Positions 1,165 to 56,342 of a DNA stretch of 64,000 nt are shown here, piece by piece. Each line of letters begins with the position of its first letter. The stretch's first letter is position 1. The translations under genes and the position numbers were made by a program. Below the pieces are notes generated by a model. That model was not told the origin of the DNA. It was given only the letters and a program-made list of their open reading frames with translations, and did not search any database. The DNA lies in assembly GCA_009801085.1 (NCBI GenBank), contig VNWV01000013.1, forward strand, positions 62,001 through 126,000, in the 5' to 3' direction. The DNA is from Lasiodiplodia sp. COLG20 (Eukaryota > Ascomycota > Dothideomycetes > Botryosphaeriales > Botryosphaeriaceae).

Positions 1165-3447
1165 TCAAACTAAGGTCAGACGTTCAAGTTCGCGTCGTGT
1201 TTTTGGTGTCTCTTCTCCAAACATGATTCCATGGATATATGCCTCACCAACAAGTGTATGCTTCCCACCATCCACCCTACGAAACACATAAGGGACTTGA
1301 CAACCTGGGACAATATAGACTAGGTCCCCCTTTTTTGCCTCTGGTGGAAGCCAGCACATTCTCCCGGCATCGGTGAGCCCCATTGTACGACCCGCCGTCC
1401 ATTTCTCAAGCCTATCCCGGACTGTCTCGAATTTACTGGATTCCCACGGGTTCTCTGAAGATCCATCAATCAACGACTCTCGAACAAAGTTGGGAATCCA
1501 CCATTCATTCTTGTCTGGAATTGGTATGTTCAAATCCTGCATGAGATAACGGTAGAAGCTTCTCAGGCGAGCAATATACACAGTTGAAGCTCGAGGGCCT
1601 TCTTCCCTAAGGCAACAAACCATGTATCGATAGAAGTCCAAGTTGGGGATTTCCTTGCCAGCCAAAACGTTATCGAGGAACCTTTCTTTGTACTGCGGAT
1701 CTGCACGTACACCAATTTGACCTAGGTACTGGAGCACCTGTCCGTTGATGATGCGAGCTGCAATTAGACTGTGATCGAGATATGCTTCAGCCCTGGAAGC
1801 TGCGTATCCAACTATCTGTATTGAATCAATCCTTTTGGCATTTAAAAACAGGTAGTCATCCGAGATTTCAGGATTTGATTCGATGCCGAAAGTGAAAAAC
1901 GTTGGAAGGCCGGCCCGAAAAGGTATACGGTCACTGAAGCGGATGAAAGTGTACTGGCTCGAGACATTGCGCCAATCAGGGATCCATGAGGGGAGGGAAC
2001 GATTGGCCGCTTTGGGAGCAGAGGATAGCAGCCCTAGGTTCTTGGTACTAAGAATACACCAAACGGCAAAGCGACGGTAGACATCCTCTGTTGTTACCTC
2101 ATGCCCGTAATCTGGTGCCAGCGGCCCTTCCAAATCAGTAGCGTCGAGATCATTTGCGAGACTTAGAACTGCATATATCTTGTCCCTGTTATCTGTGCAT
2201 GCAGAGGAGCTGGCCATTAGTAGCATTTGGAGGAATCCCCGTTTGTTTTCGGCTTCGTGGAGGAAGTCACCGTACAAATGCTGCTTCCGTGCTCTCTGAA
2301 TCTCCAATACGGTCCGTGACGCAGCCGCTGCCTCCTCTAAAAGTTTACTGTCCGCTCCAGACACCCGACGTACCCTGGAAACTACAATTGCGAAGTCATC
2401 CCAGTCCATTTCGGTGTTTCTGCTCATGAACACAGTAGCTCGCTGTGCGTGGACAATTTCCTGCAAGACCCAGACCCGATGAAACCAAGGCCGACGTAGG
2501 AGAGTGTTCATTCGACTCCAACACTCCGATTCGGCCTTGGGGGATGGCAGACGTGCGGCTATTCGACGAAGTCGTACGTGGGACGCGTCTGCGGAGACGA
2601 TTCCTAGGACGGAGGCAATCGGAAACGCGAATGCCCTCGTTTGGTGATGTGTCGATTCGCGGATGAATTTGAGCAACGTGAAAACGCCCTCCACATCCTC
2701 CGTTTCCTTTCCGAGCCATATCATTACCCTGTATGCATTTTGGTAGATATCTTTCATTCGCCGTACTTGTTTGTTTCGCTCTTCTACATCAGCTTGATTG
2801 ATGCATAGCGCGTCAATCCACAACAGGCGGTCGGCGTGTGGGAGACGAAGCTCTCGTAAGGCATCGTGCAAATTTGCCGTAATTGGAACCTCTTGATGGT
2901 GACAATGTATCGTTGCTGTCTTTTCTGTACCCCCCCAGTGATAAGAGAGCGCTTCGTATGGGACTACGGGCCGTCCAATCTTCTCAACAACGAACCTGCC
3001 CCGGATTTCGTTGTCGAGCCCTGGCTCCAGAATAAATAGGCGAAATTGGTCCACATCGAGGTCTCCATAAACCGTGCTATCGTCTTCTGAGTCCCGACGG
3101 GCAGCCACGAGTTTTGCAATAAGATACGCTTGAACACGATCTTCGTGGGAGTAGGGATAGTTCAACAGCACGAAAAAGCCCCATGTTAGGAGGAAACAGT
3201 ACAAAGGCCCGAGCATGAAGAGCACAAGAACACGTCGGCATATCCGTATTGTCGGGTTGTCCACGAGAGCTTTCCAGATTTTCGAACCACGAAACAGAGA
3301 GTTCTCGGTTTGATCTCGTTTGTTTCGCATTCCCGTGGCATAATCTGGCGGATGGCGGTGTCGTGATGGATAGGACCGAAGAGACGAGAGGTGGATTGAA
3401 CGTAGTGGATTGTGACCACGCCAAGAGAATCTCGGTTGCACCCTCAT
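1165..3447 (-). CDS. HET-domain protein with an N-terminal membrane anchor
   Basis: Single-exon frame of 760 residues. Residues about 165-320 form a complete heterokaryon-incompatibility (HET) domain: YEALSYHWGG, then LLWIDALCINQ, then the YRVMIWLG strand and the WFHRVWVLQE block. The C-terminus has the usual HET ending (GEAYIHGIMFGEE). HET domains trigger cell death or growth inhibition when genetically different hyphae fuse. Ahead of the domain, about residues 68-93 are a hydrophobic segment (VLVLFMLGPLYCFLLTWGFF) that should span a membrane, which is not usual for this family. The first Met gives 760 residues; a second Met at residue 40 (position 3330) is an alternative start that keeps the anchor. 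The family is certain from the motifs; the partner and trigger are unknown. Confidence 0.92.
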   Translation of the reverse strand: MRVQPRFSWRGHNPLRSIHLSSLRSYPSRHRHPPDYATGMRNKRDQTENSLFRGSKIWKALVDNPTIRICRRVLVLFMLGPLYCFLLTWGFFVLLNYPYSHEDRVQAYLIAKLVAARRDSEDDSTVYGDLDVDQFRLFILEPGLDNEIRGRFVVEKIGRPVVPYEALSYHWGGTEKTATIHCHHQEVPITANLHDALRELRLPHADRLLWIDALCINQADVEERNKQVRRMKDIYQNAYRVMIWLGKETEDVEGVFTLLKFIRESTHHQTRAFAFPIASVLGIVSADASHVRLRRIAARLPSPKAESECWSRMNTLLRRPWFHRVWVLQEIVHAQRATVFMSRNTEMDWDDFAIVVSRVRRVSGADSKLLEEAAAASRTVLEIQRARKQHLYGDFLHEAENKRGFLQMLLMASSSACTDNRDKIYAVLSLANDLDATDLEGPLAPDYGHEVTTEDVYRRFAVWCILSTKNLGLLSSAPKAANRSLPSWIPDWRNVSSQYTFIRFSDRIPFRAGLPTFFTFGIESNPEISDDYLFLNAKRIDSIQIVGYAASRAEAYLDHSLIAARIINGQVLQYLGQIGVRADPQYKERFLDNVLAGKEIPNLDFYRYMVCCLREEGPRASTVYIARLRSFYRYLMQDLNIPIPDKNEWWIPNFVRESLIDGSSENPWESSKFETVRDRLEKWTAGRTMGLTDAGRMCWLPPEAKKGDLVYIVPGCQVPYVFRRVDGGKHTLVGEAYIHGIMFGEETPKTRRELERLTLV

Positions 3448-23350: not shown

Positions 23351-26300
23351 TTAGTGATGAGTAAAAAAACGAGACAGAATGCCGCCGCCCCAGAAGAATG
23401 AGATCAGTCCGTAGAGAGCGGCTACTCTTAAAGCGGCTCTCCAAGCCTGCCGTAGAGTCTCTGAAATCCCAGTGTCCTTGTCAGCTTCCACATGTCTGTC
23501 AAGCAAGCTACACCTCTGAGTTGATGCGGTCTCCAGTATGTGCTGAGCTTCCGCATGAAGAGCCTCGTAGACATTCTGATAGTTGCCATCAGTCTTGGAC
23601 AAATCCTTCAAACGATAGATGATCCTATGTGAAAATTGGTCGCTGATCTCGAGGAGGCCAAGTATGGTTAACCCTGTGCGCTTGTCAGTTTTGAGACGCC
23701 AGTTCTGGATGTTTTCATTGCAGCCTAGAATAACTGAAAAGAATGATATCTTACCTTTATCATTAGCTGTGGATGACAATGCTGCTTTGCTTGCTGCCCA
23801 TTCAGACTCCTGTCTTCGAAGGTACTTGTGAAAGCCCAGAGCAGACTCATGCGATTTGGTCCAGAGTGCCACAAGCATGCCTTTTCTGTAACTAGGCATA
23901 TTTATGAGCTCACGGGCTTCTTTCACGTACTCCTGCATCGTGGAAATGGCCTCTTCAGCGGCATTTCCATTTTCCGGTAGCTTCCACGGCCGGTCTTCTG
24001 GCAGTCGCATTTTTTCTCCCTCAATCGTGAACTCTTGTGGTTCGAACTTGGCCTTTTCTGACTTATCCGCAAGTGAGTTGTTCAGCTTGGCCTCAACAAA
24101 CTCTCCATCCATTACCCCGTCCAGGAAACTAGAAAATAATTAGTACCCGATCAGAAATTATACCGATAGAACTTCGGCAGGGTTGAGTGCGCACCATTCA
24201 CCTATGAATTTCCAAACTTCAGTCTCCGAGGATTTTGGTAAGGATACCATTTTGCGCAGAATAAACGGCACTTCACCCCCACCGAGGATGGCAACGGAAT
24301 CGCCGCATCGAATTCCATATGGACCCATTCCTAGTCGGCCTCCCTCCGTTAGGAATATCCTTCTCCCGAACAGAAACCGTAGAGCCTTGAGCAATGCCGG
24401 TTGTGCCGGTTCGGAAAGAAGCTGCGCCAATTCCTCTGTCTCGACACTGGAACTACTTCCCTTCATATGCTCTGACGAGGTACATTTTGGTAGACGTATG
24501 CCAGGGGATGACTGGTCCGCCAACATGACACGCCAAATCGTTTCAAGAGACGGTGGATGAAGACTTACAGTCCTATACATCCCTTCGAAGGCGGGATTAG
24601 GGCTGAGAATCCTATACCATTCTTTGATCAAAATCTCCATCCCCCTTGCATGCCTTAGCAAATCTGTGTTCTTTGCATCTCCTAGATATGCCTCGGAAAC
24701 TTTGCGAACGCGATCACAGGCGTAGCCGTTGAGTGACAGTTGGTTTGAGTGCCAGAAAAAGAGCTCTGGAGATAGGTTGCTGCAGGAGTTGAAAATTCGG
24801 TTGGATTTCCGTGCTTCCTTTCCATCGCAGAAAGCAAATGTGAGAGGTATCACTTCAGTGGCGTCATTCTCCATCTGCGGTAGCCATGTTGCACGAGATG
24901 CAACTTGTTCAGCCTCAGATAAAGCCGAGAAAACCGAACCAAAGGAGAGAAAGTTCAAATTCTGTCCTTCATAATTCCGTGGGTCCATGGATAATGTTGC
25001 AACTTCAAGTAACGCCTCCGGAAGGTCCTTGGTGCACAGTTCTTTATGGTCGGACACATTTGCTAGAGTTCGTATTGTGTCCACACGGTATGCCGCTGCT
25101 TGGAACCTGAACCGCCAAAGCAATTTTTCAAGTGGTACCTTTCTGTCATCGATATATTCCTGTCGGGTTCGAATAAGGCTTCCAGCAACGCTCCACTCCT
25201 TAGAGTCAAAGAAGTCGTGGTATCCTTGGCCGAGGGGTGTGTACCAATGCCGCAATACAGCTTTGATGAGGACTTCTGATTCCAAAAACTCGGCAAGTAT
25301 GTTGAAATCAAAGGCGCGGTTGCCAAGAAACATCGTCGCAGATCTTGCAAGAACAAGCTCTTGGACAATCCAGCGTCGGCGCCACCAGTTTCTGTCGAAG
25401 ATGGACATCAATACCATCCACCCTTTTTGTTTTTCGATTTCGATCACCGTGTCGTACAATTCACACCCGATTGGAATGTTTGGATTTTGACTGTCGTTTG
25501 CCGATGATTTTTGGGTATCTTTGCGCCATCTTCTGACCAGGGAAACGATTTTGTAGATCAAGGAAAGGGCAGCCTCGTCTTGGCTTTTTTCTTCTCCCAG
25601 GCTGACGTACACTTCCTCTGCTTGCTTGAAGACGTCCCGAAGGGTGACAACAACATCGTCCATTTGCTGGTAAGCCTTTCCCAAGGTAATGAATGTCGCT
25701 TTCTGTGACTGGTACTCTTCGAAGAGAATCACATCTGCCCAGAACATTGTCTGCTGATCTTCTTGGTGTGATCTGACATTGCGAAAGATGCTTGCAAGCT
25801 GTGGGCGAACGGACTTCTGATATCCGTTCACAAATAAGGGAGAATCCTCTTTGACGCCCAAGGCATATGAAATGGCCTTGTACCGTGGCTGAGAATACAG
25901 TTTTTCCACGTGAATTCGACATCTCACCGGAGCTTCTGGATCCAGGGAAGGCAATATCGTGACGAGGCCTACATCGCCGTTATCTGAATTTGGAACTTTT
26001 TCGCCAAACCATCGTGGCTTCTCAGGTGCGCCATCTCCCGCCCAGTAGCCGTCAAAGCCGTCGTAGAAATAGGGAATGTTCAAAGCATCAAGAAGCCTCT
26101 GTTTTCCATTTTCTGGTAACCAGTCCACCAGCATTTGGTCGTCTGGATTTCTGGTCCAGCTAGAAAATTCACGGAACTGGGTGTACAGTCTTGTAGCTTT
26201 GCGACGTGCCGGATCTGCAACAATCTCGTCTTCGTCACTCGGTAGAATGTGCTTTTCCCAGTTGAACCATGCGTACTCTAGTAATTCAAGGTCTTTGTGG

Positions 26301-28449
26301 GGGGCAGATGGCTTATTGAAACGGTACAAGTACATCAGACAGTCCTTCGCGACCTTGAGATGGGCTTGTCTGATGTCTAATGCGAAGGTTTGCACTTCTG
26401 GGGTGTTGGGGCGTTCCTTTAGCAAGAATTCCCGGACCGAGAAATGTGCAAAAGTGACTTTGTACCGGTGTGCGTCTGGGATTGGGCCTTCAGGAAGAGG
26501 CGGCTGGAACGTCAGAAGGTCTCGAAACATGTCGAAGAACACGTATAGACTTGGCTTTGACTGGTAAAAGCTCTCAAAATGGCCGCTGACTATGTTGAGT
26601 GACCTTGAACAAGCATTTGCCAATTCGTGAATGTATAGGGGTCGTTTGGATACCAAAAGCCATTGAAGGGCACAGACGGCGAGTGGAACTGCCTGTTTGT
26701 CGATTCGACTAACAATTCTTGAATAAGTCTCGTCTAGTCCTTTTGGAAGTTGAGACAAGGCGTGCTTGATCGTCTCTGGTTCGATTGGCTGGAGATCTTT
26801 CAACGCCGAAATTTGAAGTACGCTCCACCGAAAGCTAATGTTGGCGGTTAGCTTGAGAATCTGAAAGCGTTGAGAATACCTACACTCCGTTGGCATTCTC
26901 TACTAGCCTTCTTCGGATCAAATCCTTGATATCTTGATTTTGTTGCTGAAGACGACCATGCTCCTTGATGCTCTTGGTGATGAACTCGTCAATGTCTCGG
27001 TTGACAAAGTCCGTGCCGACGGAGAGATGGTCCCATTCTGAGTGGGAACCACTGAATGCATGCGATATTTCCGGATCATTGCGGCTCGTCACCAACAGGC
27101 TTATCTTTCTGCTTGAAACTTTCGTAATGTCCCGGATGAACTTCAGCACTTCGTCTCTGTGGGGTCGTGGAACTTCGTCCAAAGCATCAACCAGAAGGTA
27201 AACTCGACTAACTTCCTTCCATTCGAACCAAAAGCTTGAGTCAATCCAGGTCTCATCTCGTGATAGAACCGACGATCCAGGTCCTAATTCAACCGATGAT
27301 GTGTATCCTGATCCATATCTTGATCCGTATCCTGATTCGTCTCCTGATGCATCCGCCGATGCATCCGCTGATGCATCCTCTAATTCATCCTCTAATTCAT
27401 CCGCCGATTCAACCGCCGATTCAACCGCCGATTCATTCGCTGATTCATCTGCCGCTTCGTTCGCTGATTCATCTGCTGCTTCGCTCGCTGATTCATCTCC
27501 CGTGCCTGGTCGCCCAGGAGCTCGAAGGTATCCAGTAGAGCTCTCTTCAGTTCTGAAAGACGAGGGCTCGCGTGGCTATTGTCTGGATGGTAGTTGTTGA
27601 AGCACTCCATTATCGGCTCTGGAACTCCTGAGCGCCATGTCTTCTTTCCAAAAAGCTGAGAGATGATGGAACGAATCAAGGAAGTCAAACCTCCCGGTGC
27701 GCTCGCATCGAAAAAGAAGTAGCAAAACATGGCTTTGTTGTATCCCGTAGCCTCACAACTCTGAGCATGGTGAATGATAATAGAGCTCAGAAAGGTTTTG
27801 CCACAGCCAACTAACGCAGGATATTAGCCAATACGATATTTAAAACTGATCGAGCCGACCTACCGCCTCCATGGAGCCAGAGGAATCTTGTATTACCAGC
27901 GAGCCACGCGGAGACCCCTGATTGTTCGAGAATCCAGAGCCCTGTATGTGTATCTTGTTGGACCAGGATCTCGCGATCAAGTATTTCCTCGTGCCGTGTC
28001 CCTCCTGACCATTCAGGTATAGCTCTATGTGTGAACAGACAGTCACGGAAGCTCTTTGTTGCTGCTCGGTCTCCGTGAATCTCAATTTTGTTTATACCAG
28101 TGATGTTGGTATTGTTGATGATATTGCCGTTTATCATGCGAGAATCGCCTTTCGCAGTGAAGTTGTTTTGGGTTCCCATGTTGCCTCGGCTTTGTGGCTG
28201 CTGGATAAAGTGACCATGGCCAAGGAAGGCGATAGGAAACGGGTCAGGTTGACCCGCCGTATGTGGGATGGAGAGGTCTGCTCGTCTGCTCATAGAAGGT
28301 TGGCTTCTGACCAGCTGTCCGGCCCGCTCATCCAGTAAGGGCCGATATGCAAACGGCTGCGAAAGCACGTAGACTGGTGAGGATTTGGATTCTACCTCAG
28401 TCGGTTGAATATAAATATTCGCATTCACTACATGTAGTATTACCAGCAA
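23351..28449 (-). CDS. NACHT NTPase (NLR) with a C-terminal HET domain and an amyloid-like N-terminal motif
   Basis: Main exons are 27864..28449, 26884..27810, 24195..26834, 23755..24128 and 23351..23673, roughly 1,500-1,600 residues. In order it shows an amyloid-motif-like segment (KGDSRMINGNIINN); a pre-NACHT block (SFRDCLFTHRAIPEW); a Walker A loop formed across an intron (GGVGCGKT); the YFFFDAS strand; an acidic low-complexity insert; Walker B (VYLLVDALDE); SLLVTSR; and the winged region to FAHFSVREFL. One uninterrupted exon then continues into a degenerate HET domain: YKAISYALG, FWADVILF, EEVYVSLGEE, WWRRRWIVQE and the typical HET ending (FIGECFLDGVMDGEF). Fungal NLRs sense a ligand and switch on cell death. 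The start is uncertain: Met at 28179 puts the motif at residues 10-23. The exon at 26884..27810 needs one frame change inside its repeat. Confidence 0.8.
27297..27500 (-). repeat. 17-unit, 12-bp minisatellite inside the NLR coding region
   Basis: Seventeen consecutive 12-bp units, degenerate around plus-strand TGATTCATCCGC. On the minus strand they encode acidic four-residue units (DESA, NEAA, VESA, DELE, DASA). Family members normally lack any insert between the LLDTFEL-like and VYLLVDALDE segments, so this is an expansion within the NACHT core. It is not a CRISPR array: there are no spacers. Confidence 0.9.
28108..28160 (-). other. HET-s-type amyloid-motif candidate in the NLR
   Basis: Encodes FTAKGDSRMINGNIINN, just ahead of the NACHT region. 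The pattern acidic-small-basic-hydrophobic-hydrophobic-x-G-N-hydrophobic is that of HET-s related amyloid motifs at NLR N-termini. It matches the two repeats at the end of the divergently transcribed HeLo-like gene. A Met codon at 28179 would place it at the extreme N-terminus, as in NWD2. Confidence 0.6.
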
Positions 28450-28494
28450 AAGGTGGTGTCATACAAACAGATGACATATTGATTTGCCGCTGAC

Positions 28495-28790
28495 CTGATA
28501 AGGCTGACGTGAGCGCGGGGTTTAGAATCATCAGGAAATGAAGTGCGGAGAATGTAGTACAAAGCCTTGGCGATATTGTTGCCTTGAAGCTGACATTGGT
28601 GAAACGTGATGTCAGTGCATGTGAAAATAAAGAGCATGGGTGGGGCGCCATTTGTACCTATGAAGTTCTAGAAACGGGGTATACTCACTCGTAATGCACG
28701 AAAACGGCTATCTTTTCCAATCCCTACATAGTATGGATTACTCCCAGCTGAACGATGGCGTGAGCTGATGACGTGTTCTAAAAGAAAGTT
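28495..28790 (-). other. Candidate upstream exons of the NLR gene
   Basis: On the minus strand, a coding-like stretch (SNPYYVGIGKDSRFRALR) ends at a GTGAGT donor at 28688. A CTGAC branch-like site and CAG acceptor at 28590 join it in frame to LQGNNIAKALYYILRTSFPDD. These may be N-terminal exons of the NLR or part of an older gene. I could not find a start codon or a fully consistent splice into the exon ending at 27864. Confidence 0.35.
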
Positions 28791-28975
28791 TTCACAGCAT
28801 GTGACCTCGAAATAGATGGCGAAATGAATTAATTATCCTTGTCGTGGATGTTCATCTACGAGGCTGTTCACAGATCATGTTTCACACGCTTGAACTTATA
28901 ATATTCTGCTTACATTCTCTGAATATCATTAACTACTCCTAAGCTTGTTCACTTTATCTTTTCCAACGTTCAGTC

Positions 28976-29914
28976 ATGGCAGCTGAGCTGGGAATTATCG
29001 CCAGTGTCATCGGCATTGCGAATGTTACCCATGCAAGTTGCAAGTCTCTCTATGAATTTCTCAAAAACATGCACGACGCGCCCAAGAACGCCGAACTTCT
29101 GGAGACCGATCTCAATGAAGTCACCCGGGTCCTCGAAAATTTCAACGTTGAGCTACAAAGACATCAAGGAGGAGAGAATGACGGAAAGAGCACCCCCATG
29201 ATCAGAAAAAGCCTCGAGCAAGTCCAGCCTTGCGTCAAAGAGCTTGGGGGTGCGTGCGACAAGTTCAGAGAGAAACTGGAGAAAACGTTCTCAAATTCAA
29301 CCGCAGTCCATACAAGCATGCGAGACCGGGTCAAATTCACCTTTCTGGACAAGCCCATTGCAGCCTTTCGCTACACACTGTCGTCATACAAAGAGACGAT
29401 CAACATAGCCCTCACACTTGTCACTGTGTATGTGGTCGAAGTCGGAATTTGGGGAGCCGAATTGTGTAGCTGACTGATGCAACCTTGCAGCAGGACAACA
29501 TCTGATAATGCGCGTGGCATTGGACGCCTCGAAGAGACGGTTGAGTCTACCAGCGTTGCTCTCGCCGGGCAAATCAAGGGTATAGAAATCAGCATACAGA
29601 CTTTAGCAGAGTCCGGGCTCACTGCCCTCACCGCCGAGAAGGACGAAATTCTGAAAGCCATCGAGAAGGAGAAGATCAACCTTCAACAATGCCTCGCGTT
29701 TTGTGTACGCGCATCTGAACAGGCAGCAGAGCTCTCTGGGAACAATATCAGGTTCGCGAAAGTTCAAGACGAGGCAAAGCAGCTGGTAGGAAATATCGGA
29801 AACATCGAGCAGGGCGGCCCTACCGTTTTGATCAATGAGTTGATTGCCCAGGACAGAGCGAGGCAGATGGGAGGGTCGATCTCAGGAAATGTCGCTCTCG
29901 AGTTCATGAAATAA
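28976..29914 (+). CDS. HeLo-like effector protein with a two-repeat, prion-like tail (HET-S-like)
   Basis: Exons 28976..29427 and 29491..29914 (63-nt intron) give 291 residues, almost the length of the HET-S protein. The acceptor could also be three bases downstream. Residues 1-150 look like a HeLo-like/fungal STAND N-terminal domain: a hydrophobic N-terminus (LGIIASVIGIANVTHA), then SLYEFLKNMHDAPKNAELLETDL and helical segments. Residues 155-235 are amphipathic helix. The tail has two copies of one motif, VQDEAKQLVGNI (243-253) and AQDRARQMGGSI (271-281), 28 residues apart. HeLo-type domains kill by making membranes leaky when an amyloid fold in the tail is templated by a partner NLR. Such an NLR lies next door in divergent orientation with a matching motif. 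Function is inferred; the gene structure and repeats are seen directly. Confidence 0.8.
29765..29899 (+). other. Prion-forming-domain candidate: two imperfect repeats
   Basis: Repeat 1 (29765..29812) and repeat 2 (29849..29896) share Q-D-x-A-[KR]-Q-[LM]-x-G-[NS]-I. Both fit the HET-s style of alternating polar and small residues ending in G-N or G-S. The arrangement of two pseudo-repeats separated by a flexible linker (EQGGPTVLINELI) at the very C-terminus is that of the HET-s amyloid fold. Confidence 0.6.
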
Positions 29915-56200: not shown

Positions 56201-56206
56201 GAAGAT

Positions 56207-56342
56207 GCGTCGGCCGGGAATCGAACCCGGGGCTGATCGAGACTCGGTGTTGAGCTCCTGGGATGACTCCCTATGATCAAGGAGGTCCAAAGGAGGCTAC
56301 AACTGTTGGCAACGATCAATTTTACCACTAAACCACCAACGC
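56207..56342 (-). tRNA. tRNA-Gly(GCC) with an unusually long intron
   Basis: On the minus strand the acceptor arms GCGTTGG and CCGACGC pair fully (one G-T). The D-arm has TTTAGTGGTAAAA, the T-arm GGGTTCGATTCCC (internal box B). The anticodon stem halves GATCG and CGATC flank loop TTGCCA with anticodon GCC. About 65 nt are inserted after the base 3' of the anticodon, the standard place for nuclear tRNA introns. Mature length is about 70-71 nt. Confidence 0.9.

Follow-up and report, generated by a model that had tools for sequence, protein, structure and literature searches.

In the gene pairs described under the name HRAM (HET-s related amyloid motif), 155 HeLo-related proteins (with a HeLo, HeLo-like or SesA domain) no longer than 310 residues carry two repeats of a 21-residue motif and fall into the subfamilies HRAM1–5 (PMC4518210). 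According to the rules written down there, position 19 of the motif is glycine, arginine or lysine is preferred at position 15, and hydrophobic residues occupy positions 5, 8, 10, 16 and 18, with glutamine at position 16 stated for HRAM5. Furthermore, the loop between the repeats measures 6–18 residues in 154 of the 155 proteins, the repeats show charge complementarity, 98 of the 155 adjoin a nucleotide-binding oligomerization domain-like receptor (NLR) with a single motif, and the Pfam model PF11558 matches only 38 of them (PMC4518210). Here we describe two neighbouring genes in a stretch of 64,000 nucleotides from Lasiodiplodia sp. COLG20 (contig VNWV01000013.1, positions 62,001–126,000; hereafter the window), taken from an assembly of 43.5 Mb in 88 contigs. 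A HeLo-like protein, the presumed effector, is encoded on the plus strand and an NLR divergently on the minus strand (Table 1). The two genes probably form an amyloid-type, two-component system of NLR and effector belonging to the HRAM kind, a reading to which we assign a probability of roughly 0.65.

The effector is spliced from two exons into 291 residues, of which residues 5–222 match PF17111 (6e-29), a family called HeLo-like domain in the accessible part of PMC9815663 and presently named PigL_N in Pfam. The two imperfect tail repeats reported in the initial annotation were recovered as VQDEAKQLVGNI at residues 242–253 and AQDRARQMGGSI at residues 270–281, spaced 28 residues apart, and that annotation was also right about the length, strand and HeLo-like nature of the protein. 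In the 21-residue register, the first repeat (r1) has five of five core positions, G19 and K15, and the second (r2) has four of five, G19 and R15, as scored by our own coding of the written rule of PMC4518210 rather than by its authors' profile, with A, T, C, W and Y counted as hydrophobic and Q accepted at positions 16 and 18. Elsewhere in the effector, no 21-mer has four or more core positions. The loop of seven residues lies inside the published range, both repeats have Q at position 16, and, read off the sequences, position 13 is complementary between them (E/R) and position 12 alike (D/D). Two rule-satisfying 21-mers spaced 27–39 residues apart were found in 10 of 20,000 shuffled 80-residue tails, the thresholds being the observed scores, and the score of one repeat against the other was equalled by 25 of 2000 shuffles of the tail, a further run giving 2 of 1000. 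The initial annotation had seen no exact match to a family it could name; the HRAM families, whose written rules the pair largely follows, fill this gap.

The NLR carries KGDSRMINGNIINN at residues 48–61. This stretch had been placed immediately before the NACHT region, which is loosely worded, since it does lie in the leader but about 80 residues ahead of Walker A. A search with the NACHT-to-HET region of the NLR gave 10 proteins among 7992 scored candidates, and two of these, P0004 from Periconia digitata and P0007 from Alternaria alternata (both Pleosporales), extend through the leader. At the site aligned with the window motif r0, their motifs TPRPVVNATATGDARMIVGNV (P0004) and QPGPTVNALATGDARMIVGGV (P0007) have five of five core positions, and A47, G49, D50, R52, M53, I54 and G56 are identical in all three proteins. 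Residues 47–56 are the best-conserved stretch of ten within the first 130 residues (7/10 identical versus 27/130; hypergeometric p = 6e-4, uncorrected for picking the best stretch), and over the whole motif, residues 38–58, 8 of 21 positions are identical (p = 0.038). When the P0004 and P0007 motifs alone were compared with all 271 21-mers of the effector, r1 ranked first with a score above chance (equalled in 63 of 5000 shuffled tails), and the second rank fell to a stretch starting one residue before r2; with the window r0 pooled in, r1 and r2 ranked first and second. The initial annotation had matched the NLR motif to the first repeat; the window r0 aligns best to r2, and with the orthologue motifs the best alignment is to r1.

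As a side observation, a second conserved patch is present in the leader at NLR residues 16–29 (28207–28248, minus strand), where P16, F19, F23-L24-G25 and F29 are identical in the three proteins. The genome contains a single exact copy of the DNA pattern of the r0 core. The idea that r0 is a widespread leader was rejected: with up to two mismatches the pattern gave 46 and 50 matches, counted without individual inspection, and about half of these are expected by chance, because a control pattern gave 24 and 26.

The locus shares with the described HRAM pairs an effector within the length limit, a HeLo-like domain, a C-terminal pair of repeats that bear G19, K/R15 and hydrophobic residues at intervals, a short loop, Q16 as in HRAM5, and an adjacent NLR with one putative motif. 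It differs in that r0 starts 38 residues into the NLR, r2 and r0 are imperfect, and the NLR continues into a HET domain. The HET-S/NWD2 pair of Podospora anserina, as far as the accessible part of PMC3321046 describes it, is likewise divergent and sets two repeats against one; however, the window effector is HeLo-like rather than HeLo, r0 is not at residues 3–23, and the NLR has no WD model. The label HET-S/NWD2-like given initially is partly supported: the layout and the class of mechanism fit the HRAM rules, the NLR motif is kept in two orthologues, and the genome holds a comparable second pair (below), but the proteins are not HET-S and NWD2 proper, the effector domain being PF17111, models PF11558 and WD finding no match, and the NLR running on into HET. 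The window pair is thus probably of a known kind, the HRAM type, and not HET-S/NWD2 itself. HELLP/PNT1, in the portions of its description available, also combines a HeLo-like effector and a neighbouring NLR through a short common motif (PP), but PNT1 is an NB-ARC-TPR protein whereas the window NLR has NACHT. The PP motif had been suggested as a comparison; neither its N.G.Q.G.N core nor G.Q.G, as expected of a PP/RHIM-type motif, was found in the effector tail or the NLR leader, and the PUASM motif was rejected by pattern as well.

A survey of the genome located 17 HeLo-like places, of which that of the window and nine of the other 16 were inspected in long form. One of these, on contig C88 (locus L045, 3900–5850), belongs to another divergent pair of a HeLo-like gene and an NLR, in which the two tail repeats (FKQEYGNTKAGDNARNLQ and FEQKYGDTVIGNGTWSAQ) are clearer and the NLR begins with MALSSQHFGNLTAGNGNYIFQG. 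It resembles the window pair in its divergent HeLo-like gene and single-motif NLR, and differs in the type of motif and in the location of r0, which is right at the N terminus. Within the first 98 residues of the C88 NLR there are matches to AAA_16 (2.5e-5) and NB-ARC (0.034), neither of which reaches its curated cut-off. Tails and leaders were compared crosswise, each score being judged against 1000 shuffles; the C88 tail, like that of a gene on contig C1, had been picked by eye and scored afterwards, so the comparison was not blind. The C88 tail scored 39 with its own NLR (4/1000) and the window tail 29 with its own (75/1000), whereas the exchanged combinations gave 21 for the window tail with the C88 NLR (631/1000) and 19 for the C88 tail with the window NLR (863/1000). 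Against the P0004 leader, the window tail scored 30 (30/1000) in register with r1, and the C88 tail 20 (722/1000). Of these two pairs, that of the window is the less convincing, and our confidence in it was set with this in mind.

The gene on contig C1 (3849457–3849861, locus L043) is also HeLo-like and has a tail with two FGD-type repeats. Its tail scored 35 with the C88 leader (6/1000), better than chance, and 19–23 with the other three leaders, and one NLR, that of C88, possibly serves both the C88 and the C1 effector. The NLR located about 2.3 kb downstream of the C1 gene seems by eye to start with a SesA-like domain.

The NLR exons were placed by splice signals and then checked by alignment with P0004 and P0007. 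Exons 1 and 2 jointly match PF24883 (3.6e-20), and behind the NACHT region a HET domain was found that covers the full PF06985 profile, a feature which, like the tandem array and the frame change within NACHT described below, had escaped the initial annotation. No WD or other repeat model was found on the NLR at expectation values (E) up to 1 in Pfam. P0004 and P0007 are about 40% identical to the window NLR, and Pfam recognises NACHT and HET in both, although the P0007 model is missing the part with Walker A. P0002, with 58% identity in the region used for the search, has no front portion. By alignment and visual inspection, NACHT C-terminal sequence precedes the HET region in nine of the ten relatives (P0002–P0010); P0011, without this sequence, is the exception, and for P0006 there is no HET call among the precomputed ones. 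A genome search with P0004, in which 35 of 292 candidates were scored, gave one place covering both NACHT and HET. The stretch that usually reads W-DAICINQ is [FV]W[AV]D-I--EE in the window NLR and in P0002–P0007, and because of this divergence the activity of the HET domain may be lost or altered. Removal of the last intron connects the end of the HET region, GECFLDGVMDGE, to a C-terminal extension with the hydrophobic end AALRVAALYGLISFFWGGGILSRFF; this may be a membrane anchor and is absent from the P0004 and P0007 models.

HET-E and HET-D (HET-NACHT-WD40) also unite NACHT and HET in a single protein, as far as their available descriptions go, but in the window NLR the HET domain is C-terminal to NACHT, has diverged at the CINQ-type stretch and is accompanied by no WD model. 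In the accessible parts of PMC4986451, PMC9815663, PMC12258605, PMC10197012 and PMC12881547, HET appears solely at the N terminus of NLRs or in proteins of other kinds; a receptor with NACHT followed by HET was not found described there, rare C-terminal annotations being relegated to the supplement of PMC4986451. The diverged C-terminal HET domain, common to the orthologues and found in place of any recognised repeat domain, is one of two respects in which the pair stands apart, the other being the interrupted NACHT domain. A speculative and on balance doubtful account of this family (the window NLR, the Periconia and Alternaria proteins and fragments from sequence collections) is that the diverged HET domain replaces the repeat sensor, with the amyloid motif driving the HeLo-like killer and HET acting as a sensor or decoy or as a second death output.

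Several observations weigh against the pair as proposed. Direct similarity between the window tail and its own leader was not significant (equalled in 135 of 2000 and 202 of 2000 shuffles for two leader lengths), and the window r0 has only three of five core positions, a quality reached in 6186 of 20,000 shuffled leaders, and occupies residues 38–58 instead of the extreme N terminus. Without the window r0, r2 in register ranks only fourth of the 271 21-mers. At position 12 the repeats carry the same residue (D), contrary to the published charge complementarity, and no PF11558 match was obtained in the effector tail or NLR leader at E up to 10. AlphaFold2 applied to residues 193–291 as a single sequence, without an alignment, gave an all-helical model with a predicted local distance difference test (pLDDT) value of 67.5 and a predicted template modelling score of 0.43, five versions spanning pLDDT 44–67. 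The one effector relative found (P0001, 26% identical) has, by eye, no comparable tail. The coded two-repeat rule flagged none of the nine further HeLo-like places, and since even the clearer C88 tail went unflagged, it is a poor detector. Finally, with the P0007 leader the window tail scored 25 (151/1000), outside the motif register, and the non-cognate C88 tail 30 (64/1000), which speaks against clean specificity; by these sequence scores, the tail-to-leader matches appear cognate within this genome, but one cross-species row does not. The weak direct match, the helical model and a glycine at core position 18 of r2 would suit a tail repeat of another, perhaps helical, kind, with the leader motif serving otherwise and the two genes being neighbours without amyloid signalling. 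Such a chance resemblance is unlikely, given the rarity of two-motif tails among shuffled sequences, the fact that the outside r0 motifs chose the same register as r1, and the recurrence of divergent adjacency in the C88 pair. Still less probable is that the motif in the leader serves to assemble NLR oligomers, or to bring in a different effector, and is not cognate to the HeLo-like tail in the window: r0 is conserved in two species, and PMC9815663, in its accessible part, reports motifs without adjacent partners, but the orthologous r0 motifs find their best match in r1 of the effector gene next door.

A more serious alternative, although we place it somewhat below even odds, is that the pair is a relic, with an HRAM-type effector and motifs but an NLR that has become a pseudogene through expansion of an array in NACHT, leaving the effector untriggered; this is compatible with an HRAM-type pair in the ancestor. 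A tandem array of 12/24-bp units sits between Walker A and Walker B, the reading frame ahead of it differs from that of Walker B, and P0004 has no insert at this site. The GT-donor introns able to bridge the array have the donors GTTGAA or GTCTTT, unlike the four introns of the gene pair (GTATGT, GTAGGT, GTAGGT and GTGCGC). Because of this interruption the window NLR may be defunct. On the other hand, its remaining exons are open and about 40% identical to the two orthologues, and an assembly indel in the repeat, or an unusual intron, would dissolve the problem; an assembly error, an odd intron and a dead allele are all possible causes of the break.

Should the HRAM-type pair function as modelled on HET-S/NWD2 (PMC4518210; PMC3321046, accessible part), the HeLo-like effector would be kept inactive, its tail bearing the two 21-residue repeats, until the NLR senses a cue via its C-terminal half and oligomerises through NACHT. 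The N-terminal NLR motifs would then stack into a β-solenoid seed, on which the tail of the effector would adopt this fold too, whereupon the HeLo-like domain would attack the membrane and the cell would die. Templating, membrane attack and death are carried over from HET-S/NWD2 by analogy.

Table 1. Features of the effector and NLR genes, in window coordinates.
Feature	Position	Strand	Basis or remark
Intergenic region	28294..28975	.	682 bp separating the divergent ATGs, from gene models
Effector exon 1, HeLo-like N-terminal part	28976..29427	+	Spliced open reading frame; PF17111
Effector intron, GTATGT...TTGCAG, 63 nt	29428..29490	+	Consensus donor and acceptor, picked from several open options
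Effector exon 2, putative amyloid-type tail and stop	29491..29914	+	Spliced open reading frame
Repeat r1, residues 233-253, SGNNIRFAKVQDEAKQLVGNI	29735..29797	+	HRAM rule fit; best match to NLR motifs
Repeat r2, residues 261-281, PTVLINELIAQDRARQMGGSI	29819..29881	+	HRAM rule fit; 7-residue loop after r1
NLR motif r0, residues 38-58, NMGTQNNFTAKGDSRMINGNI	28120..28182	-	Alignment with orthologues
NLR exon 1: leader, r0, start of Walker A	27864..28293	-	ATG at 28293; PF24883
NLR intron 1, GTAGGT...TTAG, within Walker A GGVGCGKT	27811..27863	-	P0004 has GGVGCGKS
NLR exon 2, first NACHT half, to about LGDQAR	27500..27810	-	Reading frame and alignment
12/24-bp tandem array within NACHT	27303..27497	-	Frame changes across array; P0004 without insert
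Walker B, VYLLVDALDEV, in other frame	27171..27203	-	Frame and alignment
NLR intron, GTAGGT...TTAG, 49 nt	26835..26883	-	Splice signals
NLR exon: NACHT C-terminal part and HET region	24195..26834	-	Alignment with orthologues
HET domain match	25358..25882	-	PF06985, 4.2e-7, profile positions 1-146 of 146
NLR last intron, 66 nt, FIGE to CFLDGVMDGEF	24129..24194	-	P0004 and P0007 read GECYVHGIMDGE
NLR last exon, C-terminal extension with hydrophobic end	23351..24128	-	P0002 resembles first part by eye

Elsewhere in the window, a HET protein (PF06985, 3.4e-35) is encoded at 1168–3447 on the minus strand, and a tRNA gene with an apparent intron lies at 56206–56342 on the same strand (137-nt match to a 71-position model). 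The genome as a whole contains at least 150 HET places and at least 155 NPHP3_N places.

Amyloid signalling from an NLR to a membrane killer is already known, and to this the present locus adds a diverged pair. The presence of two pairs with different motifs in one genome offers a natural test of the insulation between motif classes, and the array at the NACHT frame change gives an opening for studying the decay of such receptors or their variation among strains. Furthermore, the NACHT-HET receptor raises the question of whether an immune receptor may use a death domain as its sensing end; if the account given above for its family were true, the receptor would monitor HET-based cell death, or would fire two death pathways simultaneously.

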